Shown: piece by piece, positions 1,657 through 42,267 of the stretch | Layout: each line of letters begins with the position of its first letter | Position numbering within the stretch: position 1 is the first letter of the stretch | Source of the DNA: Ianthella basta | Lineage: Eukaryota > Porifera > Demospongiae > Verongiida > Ianthellidae | Assembly (NCBI GenBank): GCA_964019415.1 | Contig: OZ025872.1 | Span: forward strand, 2,556,199 to 2,620,198 | Reading direction: 5' to 3' | Length of the DNA: 64,000 nucleotides | Program-made: the position numbers and the translations under genes | The notes under the pieces: model-generated | Database searches by the model: none | The model's input: only the letters and a program-made list of their open reading frames with translations | Told to the model about the DNA's origin: nothing

Positions 1657-4600
1657 ATGCTTGAGAGAGAATTGGAAACAGTGAAACAAGATATGCAGGT
1701 ATGTGCACTTCATGTGCAGTCATATATGGTGCATGTGTGGAGTGAAGAGCATGAGAGAGAGTAGGTACATTCAGGTTCAATGCACTTATCATTCTAGACC
1801 CACCCTGTAATAGAAAATTACTAATTTCCTTTTGTGCATGAGGTTCACATTCTACCCACCACAGATATCACTTCTAGTTTTTGCTATATTCATTCAGTTA
1901 TACTTGTGTTGCATCATGTAGAATGCACATACAGTGACTATCAACCCAAACTTTGTCAGTTACTGTAGTTACATAGTTGGCTCACAGGTGCTCAGCTGAT
2001 TTGGTCCCAGCAGTGGTTTATGCGTACCATCCCCATGTCTGAACTGCAATAAATGCAGCTTGCATTACAAACTTATTGCAGGTTAACCTGGCAATAATGA
2101 AGACCAAAAATGAAGAACTGGAAAAGCAGAACCAAGTGAGCATGTCTTAGCACATTATGTAATGTCCACCACCATCACCACTACACAGTGCATGTTTTGC
2201 AAATATGACAAAAACTACTTTAATTTACCAAAATGGTGTAAATCCAGGGTGCATGCCAGGTTTTAATAAATTTAACTATTAATCTAGTTAATTTTAAACT
2301 ATACAGGTGACAGTGCATATGTATATAGCAGTTCTTTTATATAAGTAAGTCCATCAAAATTGCAATGTTGTGGTGGGTAAACTTAGGAACACGTGCAGAT
2401 AGACTTTGTGCTTGCTCCAATGCTGCACCAATTAAATTGCCACAGCTGGCACTCACCGCTTCACCCTACGCATCTATACATTAACCCTGGTACATGTCTC
2501 AGCTGTGAACGTAGGTGTCGTGTGTCATGTTCCAGAAGTGCACCAAAAATTTGGTAGGAAGGAAGAGATTTGATATTCTCTGTTATGTACTCCAGGCTGA
2601 ATATGGTCATTGACATGAGAGTATAGGCATGCATTTTTTACTTGGGACAGTCCTGAATGTGTACATCAAGAGTGCAATGTCTGGGAGAGTCATGATGCAG
2701 CATGTGCAATGTGCATGCTACAATTAGAGAAGCAGTAGATTTACCAAATCTGTTGGCTATTCTTTGCCATATTCTCTATAAGATTATTTGATCTTGCAAT
2801 TTTCCTTAAATAATAATGCATGACATGCAGGTAGCTAAAATGTTCTAATGGCAATATACCTCAAGACCTCAATACAGTGGTGAATTTATTTCTTTTATAG
2901 GAGTTATCACAGAAAGAAAGAGATGCCATAGAGAAAAGTCTTCCAATGATTGGACAGATTGAGACATTAAAGGTTTCTGCATGCATATATACTAAATTGC
3001 CACCAGCAACCTATACAACATTGAGGAGACTGCTATTTTATATTACACTACAACTGACCTTCGGAGAAAACAGTTTTATTGCATGGTGGGGGGTGTCTAT
3101 AAAAGGCACATATAGAGAATGACTAGTTATGTTCAGACAATTCAAGGCCTCGATCACAGTTACACACAATGCACACAACACTGACACACAATAACACCAC
3201 ACATGCACACACACCATATACACCACCCATATCCACACAGCACAACAACACAATACACAGACATGCATACACACAAAATCACACACAGACTAACAGGTGC
3301 ATGCATGTGCACACACATGCACATGTGCCCACACAGACACACACACGCACGCACACACCTGCACGCACACACACACACACACACAAAACACGCACACACA
3401 CGCACACACACAAAACACACACACGCACACACACACACCAACTCTCCTCCGAATGACCTAAGCCATCAGTCAGTGATTGACCAGTTTGCCTTTTTCATCA
3501 TGTCATCGAGCAATTTCACATTGTATTATGGTGTGCATCACCTCCTAGCTGTCGCTATTTTGCAGTCACAGCTCCAAGAAGTGAAGGAAGAATTAAATGG
3601 AAAAGCCCAGCTATTGGGAATGAGGGATGCTGAATTGAAACTCCTTGATGAGAAGCTGATTGCTTCTGAGTCACTAGTGAAGAGCAAAGGGGATGACTGG
3701 ACTGCCTTGGAGGAAAAGTACAAAGAGGTAGGTCACTGTTTATTCATCTCTGTCATAATAGTTGTCACAGTTGGTTGCTGCAGTGATTGTAGAATTTGTG
3801 TATGTCTTGTCAATTAAAATTACAAGATATTGGAGGAGAAAGACAGACTGACACGTCAGCTCCAGCAAATAAAGGATGAAAAGACTGACCTGGAGGAGCA
3901 TGAGGTAAACTGCAACAATAAACGACCTTATGGTTTGCTCTTATACAACACACCATGCAGAATTTCTTATATGCATTCAATTTGGCAGAAAAAAATGGAA
4001 GAGGCAAGGGCCACAACAGACATGGAGTTAGACAAAATCAAGACAGAAAGAGATGCACTGAAGGAAGACATAAAAACTGATCATGTGAGCTTCAATACTA
4101 ATTATTAATTACTTATTCTGCATGCTGATATTTGTATTTGAAATGATAAATCCCCATAGGGAAAGGTTGCATGAGAGGCTATTGCCAATAATTGTGCTCC
4201 CCTAATTACAGCACTGGTATGCAATGCAAGGTAACATGTAAATGAATGATAGAAGAAGAAAGGTTAAAATGATGGTCAAAACATTGAGTATATTAAATTT
4301 AGTAGAAAGGTAAGTGAGTTGATTATAATAACAAACTAAGGTACTTTGAGCAGCACTTTGCTGACACATTTTATTAAGGTATAAGCAAGGTTGAGGATTG
4401 TAGAGTATGCTATGATAATTAGTTCCAGATGAAGAGGGCATTTGCAAAATAGGAGACCGAATATAAAATCTTTAAACCGGGATTTGGAGATTGTGAGCAA
4501 GTAAGGCGTATTCTGTGGAATGGTGGAAAGTGCAATGTGTTAAATTATAGCATTAACACTTTGGCTGTATAAGTATGATATCGTACATGTTGTTTTAGGG

Positions 4601-42267: not shown

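Follow-up and report, generated by a model that had tools for sequence, protein, structure and literature searches.

Class 0-0 symmetric exons of exon shuffling and the 54-bp collagen exons are sized so that their duplication or loss is neutral, and rods of the spectrin/dystrophin type consist of triple-helical repeats of ~106-109 residues. Here we describe two predicted coiled-coil genes of the sponge Ianthella basta, A and B, in which introns mostly keep one fixed place in the coiled-coil heptad. Gene A and the first part of gene B lie on a single 64,000-nucleotide stretch of DNA (the window; C5:2556199-2620198 of a 209 Mb, 96-contig genome), and positions below are in window numbering unless given with a contig. 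The closest known system appears to be the chicken BG genes. According to passages of two papers (PMC5938342, PMC4046983), the exons for the cytoplasmic coiled coil of chicken BG measure 21 nt (a few 18 or 24), their fourth and last codons specify hydrophobic residues, and the number of exons varies between genes and haplotypes. In dystrophin, some multi-exon deletions restore a heptad-continuous hybrid repeat (passages of PMC3748829), and in coiled coils of the synaptonemal complex the sequence diverges while the coiled-coil length is held and indels are depleted (passages of PMC8598163).

Exon lengths and intron positions

The genes comprise the following predicted parts:

1657..42267, plus strand: gene A, 62 predicted internal phase-0 coiled-coil exons (1657-39831) and a terminal exon (41692-42267)
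57158..62940, plus strand: gene B, 14 predicted phase-0 coiled-coil exons, 10 of them 7n codons long (whole heptads)
65724-77099 (window numbering, beyond the window), plus strand: continuation of gene B, 9 exons, 6 of them 7n

Exons were identified with our own model of splice sites and codons. Clear phase-0 exons of the window served for its training, introns of any of the three phases are permitted, and length modulo 7 is never used. Strict intron penalties and candidate lists were applied in exon calling, and the curated gene A contains 0-0 exons only, all exon borders being predictions. The exons at 65724-77099 were treated as one chain with gene B, and may belong to a separate gene.

The lengths of gene A exons are strongly biased. 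Counted in codons modulo 7 (remainders 0 to 6), the 62 internal exons are distributed as 30, 4, 1, 5, 17, 4, 1 (chi-square P 6e-15; for 7n alone, P 1.7e-10), and a stricter score cut leaves 58 exons with counts 30, 4, 1, 3, 15, 4, 1. This confirms the bias claimed in the original prediction, where 30 of 64 exons were 7n and 18 were 7n+4 (here, 30 and 17 of 62). The 24 exons of gene B are distributed as 16, 0, 0, 1, 2, 3, 2; inside the window 10 of 15 are 7n, the same number as claimed earlier, and 16 of 24 with the continuation. Gene A exons range from 14 to 107 codons (the shortest modelled exon is 42 nt), and the commonest length is 84 nt (14 of 62).

The earlier rule concerned exon length, which proves to be a consequence; the underlying regularity is the position of the intron between heptad positions e and f (e|f). 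When heptad registers are assigned across junctions without using exon borders, 45 of 61 gene A introns immediately precede f (P 3e-20), as do 33 of 47 after removal of repeated exon pairs (P 3e-14) and 21 of 22 gene B introns (P 3e-13). If only residues within each exon are used, the signal in gene A is weaker, with the first residue being f in 42 and the last residue being e in 37 of 62 exons; with one exon per family, f starts 25 and e ends 24 of 43 exons (random cuts give f in 17%). By the same in-exon registers, f starts 11 of 14 gene B exons in the window and 9 of 9 downstream. The hydrophobic core of gene A 7n exons peaks at residues 3, 6, 10, 13, 17, 20, 24 from the exon start and at -2, -5, -9, -12, -16, -19 from its end, and this spacing indicates that the exon runs from heptad f to heptad e.

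Exons of the 7n+4 class

The 7n+4 class is itself in excess, comprising 9 of the 22 non-7n sequence families (P 0.006). In a two-anchor model (start at f, end at e, one free break) these exons score 0.192 per residue, 7n exons 0.175, and random pieces 0.048 (sd 0.112); the model fits seven of the nine 7n+4 families well. As they fit between the same anchors, such exons could be added with little disturbance to their neighbours. The fit is also regained with one break in length classes 1 and 3, while classes 2, 5 and 6 are rare (1, 4 and 1 exons of 62). The original prediction equated the extra four residues with a hendecad. That holds for 9 of 17 exons, which have a 3-4-4 core, seven of them belonging to a single family of 25/32 codons; in the others the extra residues are at the exon end or form a 3-1-3 step, and the hendecad is not the general form of this class.

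Duplication and decay of exon arrays

Three copies of the terminal domain of gene A (191 amino acids) were found in the genome, all on one contig (window 41692-42267; C5:2978844-2979413; C5:2690964-2691551), which define two paralogues, A' and A'', with terminal domains 83% and 56% identical to that of A. Within gene A, 24 of the 62 exons belong to clusters of similar copies (9, 9, 2, 2 and 2 exons). The arrays are:

14503..22769, plus strand: 28-codon exon family, 9 open copies at 14503-14586, 14846-14929, 15056-15139, 21369-21452, 21910-21993, 22102-22185, 22300-22383, 22501-22584, 22686-22769
21530..21613, plus strand: decayed 28-codon copy, acceptor AG kept, frame open, donor GT lost
21723..21806, plus strand: decayed 28-codon copy, in-frame stop, donor GT lost
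29393..32260, plus strand: 25/32-codon exon family, 9 copies, 8 of them 7n+4, at 29393-29488 (32 codons), 29586-29660 (25), 29777-29851 (25), 29972-30043 (24), 31315-31389 (25), 31500-31574 (25), 31777-31872 (32), 31988-32062 (25), 32165-32260 (32)
10946..11470, plus strand: recent 36-codon exon pair (7n+1), peptides differing at 2 of 36 residues

Most introns of the arrays are homologous. Their similarity is higher than in any of 100 shuffles for 17 of 21 pairs of the 28-codon array and for 2 of 3 pairs of the 25-codon array; identity reaches 107/114, and the introns downstream of the 36-codon pair match in 213 of 240 aligned columns. Thus exon and intron were copied together. Moreover, the 28-codon family has nine open and two decayed copies in A vs one found in A'', and the 25/32-codon family has nine copies in A, four in A' and two in A''. 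Homologous adjacent exons and introns, with copy numbers differing between paralogues, are the marks of tandem exon duplication, and the whole-exon gain and loss proposed in the original prediction is visible in both arrays. No counterpart of the 36-codon pair was found in A''.

The decayed copies, located by a weight-matrix scan with array units, are presumably skipped in the mRNA. The hendecad pattern (3-4-4) is present in seven of the eight 7n+4 copies of the 25/32-codon family. In its 24-codon member, the first-codon place (29969-30043 if counted in full) is occupied by TAG, the AG of which forms a new acceptor 3 bases downstream of the old one.

Such arrays suggest that copying alone could be sufficient: a few 28- and 25-codon exons, duplicated often, would inflate the counts with no structural sieve. 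Indeed, the raw counts of the original prediction partly reflect tandem copies, given the share of clustered exons and the homology of most array introns. However, the bias persists when each of 43 sequence families is entered once, the counts being 21, 3, 1, 4, 9, 4, 1 (for 7n, P 7.6e-8), which largely refutes this explanation. It also does not predict the single 7-residue gaps in diverged paralogue exons (4 of 12 changed exons, see below), nor families lacking mutual similarity, and none beyond the heptad pattern was found between 37 families compared against heptad-preserving permutations. Hence we regard copying without selection as rather improbable.

Length changes and selection in the paralogues

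Gene A and A' share a block with ~92% nucleotide identity (BLASTN, a comparison otherwise swamped by CA/TG repeats), and A'' is collinear with A over the 20 kb compared. The 31 exons of A'' show the same length bias (13, 1, 1, 4, 10, 1, 1). The stretches and exons relevant for the comparison are:

32360..37022, plus strand: block collinear with both paralogues, 17 exons (32360-32422, 32692-32733, 32821-32883, 33036-33119, 33251-33409, 33823-33894, 33994-34056, 34134-34238, 34327-34410, 35168-35272, 35353-35436, 35537-35611, 35737-35862, 35964-36089, 36164-36238, 36505-36579, 36774-37022), 16 of the same length as in A' and one differing by +7 residues within the exon
34134..34238, plus strand: 35 codons, 42 in A' (one 7-residue gap), 35 in A''
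35168..35272, plus strand: 35 codons, 35 in A', 28 in A'' (net -7)
35964..36089, plus strand: 42 codons, 42 in A', 49 in A'' (one 7-residue gap)
9354..9458, plus strand: 35 codons, 42 in A'' (one 7-residue gap)
13704..13757, plus strand: 18 codons, 25 in A'' (one 7-residue gap)
26701..29203, plus strand: weakly quantised stretch, 1 of 6 exons 7n, paralogue length changes of 1-2 residues; exons 26701-26793 (31 codons), 27022-27150 (43), 27330-27386 (19), 27465-27536 (24), 28734-28796 (21), 29105-29203 (33, predicted GC donor)

Among 27 clear exon pairs of A and A'', 19 are equal in length, and the others differ by +7, +7, +7, -7, -13, -3, -1 and -1, the three +7 changes being single gaps and -13 aligning as +1 and -14. 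In both paralogues together 12 exons changed, four of them by one 7-residue gap and five by a net 7 residues. If 7-residue changes are assumed to account for 3 to 10% of indels (1.7-2.9% under a power law), the probability of 4 of 12 is 0.0003 to 0.026, and that of 5 of 12 is 0.00002 to 0.004; changes of seven residues are in excess. The filter proposed earlier for gain and loss of whole exons is not confined to that level, several of the changes being 7-residue indels inside an exon.

Of the gene A exons examined against A'', nine are excluded from the comparison, namely 11960 (ambiguous donor), 38359 (excess gaps), and seven with no clear counterpart (5611, 10946, 27330, 27465, 28734, 29105, 36505). 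That with A' covers 25 of 26 exons, as 28734 matched only the site already assigned to 27465. Three of the equal A'' pairs have weak spots: 24751 is identical at only 6 of 22 residues, 29393 aligns only with +1 and -1, and for 9166 a start two codons downstream is also conceivable.

The peptides are under purifying selection, with dN/dS of 0.43 over 515 codons (16 of the 17 exons of the collinear block) and 0.40 in an older block. Selection for alternative splicing could also keep exons register-neutral, if their inclusion or skipping serves to adjust the length of the rod. Neither 7n exons nor 7n+4 exons containing an internal break would disturb the register when skipped, and the decayed copies suggest that exons are droppable over evolution. 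Still, nothing in the DNA requires such use, and dN/dS near 0.4 together with conserved lengths fits constitutive use equally, making this explanation improbable in our opinion.

Two further features of the A' locus were observed. Near C5:2976566-2976784, ~860 bases of window 38262-39343 are absent in A', which removes the whole 107-codon exon and a portion of the one with 88 codons. In a joined stretch of the A' locus (L032-L035, 10459-20142) there are seven coiled-coil exons of 14-62 codons between two A' parts, unmatched in A and less quantised than gene A, followed by a helical-looking exon at 24530 with no Pfam match.

Intron insertion, border choice and controls

The positions of introns might also reflect insertion bias, if introns entered a pre-existing coiled coil at splice-friendly codons (Lys, Glu, Gln) recurring every seven residues. 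Coiled-coil residues are periodic, and Lys, Glu and Gln are the final residues of 29, 12 and 8 of the 62 gene A exons, respectively. However, decoy junctions with splice-like exon context in the same coding sequences fall at e|f in only 19% (A) and 22% (B) of cases. Random placement of introns at splice-like sites of gene A yields 17% +- 5% of 7n exons (maximum 39% in 4,000 draws) vs 48% observed, and for gene B 15% vs 70%. Together with the joint copying of array exons and introns, this makes insertion bias very unlikely. A gene-modelling artefact, with border choice or training favouring such lengths, hardly deserves credence: training did rely on phase-0 exons of the window, and drawing uniformly from the in-frame alternative border pairs (median 6 per gene A exon) gives 27% 7n (maximum 42%), but the model is blind to length modulo 7, score-weighted sampling of borders gives 46% (43.5-48.4%), the 22 gene A exons with a paralogue counterpart are distributed as 11, 1, 0, 1, 8, 0, 1, and with phases 1 and 2 permitted both ends are still in phase 0 in 66 of the 69 plus-strand candidates of the window scoring >16.

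For a control, 16 other regions of the genome, 160 kb in total, were analyzed, where 0-0 exons constitute 11 of 74 internal exons. The length distribution of these 11 exons (2, 1, 1, 1, 1, 3, 2) is apparently flat, given the small sample, which agrees with the original prediction, for which the same bias in non-coiled phase-0 exons was to be checked. A search with PF01576 (myosin tail) yielded two match clusters on contig C15, at 3.70-3.72 Mb and 6.28-6.29 Mb.

Several observations weigh against selection on the heptad register. Fifteen of the 62 gene A exons are neither 7n nor 7n+4, and for this reason the claim that every exon is skippable in both frame and structure was too strong. Against the small control of 11 exons, gene A stands out only at borderline significance (P 0.06), and among control symmetric exons of any phase 10 of 36 are 7n, four of these ten being similar 70-codon phase-1 copies from one locus (L026, minus strand). 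Nine coiled-coil exons of the A' stretch unmatched in A include three of the 7n class (3, 3, 1, 0, 0, 0, 2), with f at five of nine starts; four extra A'' exons include none, with f at one of four starts. In A'' overall, only 13 of 31 exons start at f (P 0.001 against the 17% expectation) and 10 of 31 start at b. The 36-codon pair, the most recent duplication observed, belongs to the 7n+1 class, which means that not every new duplicate is register-neutral. The hendecad spacing is limited to 9 of 17 7n+4 exons, mostly in one family, and descent of all exons from one ancestor, considered with the same 37 families and heptad-preserving permutations, was unsupported. The -7 change of exon 35168 in A'' is the net of +3 and -10, in an exon candidate that is itself weak. 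Changes in the older block are +1, -2, -1 in A' (27.3-29.2 kb), and A'' has -1, -1, -3; a good part of the changes of ordinary size lies in the weakly quantised 26.7-29.2 kb (+1, -2, -1 in A'; -1 in A''), with -3 and -1 also found elsewhere. Finally, borders in the paralogues were chosen using the alignment score, a criterion biased towards equal lengths (though not towards multiples of 7). As the controls are small or weak, the case is carried by the paralogues together with the uniform and decoy nulls.

Origin of the exon structure

With these observations weighed, duplication and loss of exons together with introns, screened by selection on the superhelix register, is the likely origin of the structure of genes A and B. 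The interpretation given in the original prediction is supported in part, selection on the register being likely. Genes A and B would encode long coiled coils whose introns are in phase 0 relative to the reading frame and, for the most part, keep a set place in the superhelix. A typical exon, running from f to e, would then be a unit of whole heptads (7n) or of heptads plus four residues (7n+4), the extra four residues being absorbed inside the exon or at its end, in the main family as a hendecad. The arrays grew by tandem duplication of an exon with its flanking intron, and copies disappear when a splice site decays or the copy is deleted. The sieve is probably selection for a continuous hydrophobic stripe, which would remove most register-shifting products, whole exons and in-exon indels alike. 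Exons outside the arrays may have arisen in the same way as array exons.

In such a gene many exons could be copied or lost without distorting the rope-like protein. The vague idea that gene structure follows protein structure becomes a countable rule, the intron position modulo seven, and diverged paralogues on one contig show the sieve as one-heptad length changes and arrays of differing copy number. If other coiled-coil genes comply, the intron register would be a marker of exon-duplication history and would predict tolerated exon losses in rod proteins, with a bearing on exon skipping, e.g. in dystrophin.

Other features of the locus

The remaining predicted exons of gene A are:

1657-1698 (14 codons), 2082-2135 (18), 2901-2972 (24), 3566-3727 (54), 3827-3904 (26), plus strand: exons 1-5
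3989-4084 (32 codons), 5611-5694 (28), 8576-8722 (49), 9166-9249 (28), 9354-9458 (35), plus strand: exons 6-10
10946-11053, 11363-11470, 11705-11893, 11960-12064, 13704-13757, 14138-14326, plus strand: exons upstream of the 28-codon family
24751-24816, 25273-25398, plus strand: exons downstream of the 28-codon family
38359-38679 (107 codons), 39211-39474 (88), 39778-39831 (18), plus strand: last coiled exons, heptad model fits poorly
41692-42267, plus strand: terminal exon, 191-aa domain

Gene A as modelled encodes 2,245 amino acids, and its predicted 5' end is provisional; in the 20 kb 5' of the window there are one isolated 25-codon candidate with score 18, located 14.2 kb from the window's start, and three weaker candidates. 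A GC-richer stretch (15914-17870) with minisatellites of 78, 80, 82 and 140 bases lies in the large intron that follows exon 15056-15139.

The 191-aa domain has no Pfam match and no sequence match in PDB at E 1, and its AlphaFold model is poor (mean pLDDT 40.5). In a protein search with the whole modelled protein, nothing among 350 candidates matched the terminal domain at E 0.01. A search with the domain alone yielded five entries, the first of which is the window's own; of the others, two (identity 72% and 59%) come from short contigs of a different source, and one is 55% identical.

In gene B, exons at 57299-62720 appear to recur as a block of four at 65724-67305, with 14, 35, 35 and 28 codons in the same order and with the same lengths (7/14, 17/35, 9/35 and 10/28 identical residues). 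Kinase-like sequences are found between genes A and B:

53809..54342, plus strand: protein kinase domain fragment (PF07714, PF00069), upstream of the gene B coiled coil, only a candidate for the same transcript
43226-52027, minus strand: four long open frames (368, 386, 379 and 335 aa), the first matching PF00069 and the others similar by eye; this looks like a kinase gene array

Comparison with known systems

As in chicken BG, a gene of the butyrophilin family, the coiled coil is built from many exons in a fixed heptad register, with hydrophobic residues at fixed codons. The fixed register of BG-type genes holds here for the majority of introns (45 of 61 and 21 of 22), not for all. According to the same passages on BG, its exons are single-heptad units of 21 nt, unlike those of gene A, which span 14 to 107 codons and include 7n+4 as a further length class; and BG exons have a split first codon, with the intron inside codon e in the letters used there, whereas here introns are in phase 0, between e and f. 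The proteins themselves differ from those of genes A and B; BG-type genes also have a transmembrane exon and encode an Ig V-like extracellular domain. In a full-text literature search (titles and abstract openings among the matches listed, most subscription journals being outside it), no case was reported of exons spanning several heptads whose introns keep to a single heptad position.

Exon borders in phase with the coiled-coil repeat are also a feature of the dystrophin rod with its spectrin repeats. There, however, the unit is the triple-helical repeat with exon pairs, and the passages of PMC3748829 do not describe quantisation of single exons to 7n. In the synaptonemal-complex case, the corresponding passages of PMC8598163 describe depletion of indels, not heptad-sized indels, and give no exon rule. 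Compared with class 0-0 symmetric exons and collagen exons, neutrality here needs two phases together, that of the codon and that of the heptad. We tentatively suggest that the heptad register could be a second intron phase of coiled-coil genes, mostly e|f in genes A and B, which lets exons be added, lost or moved between them neutrally, as a shared kit for rod length that is perhaps used in splicing; BG genes would then be an independent, single-heptad version of the same arrangement.

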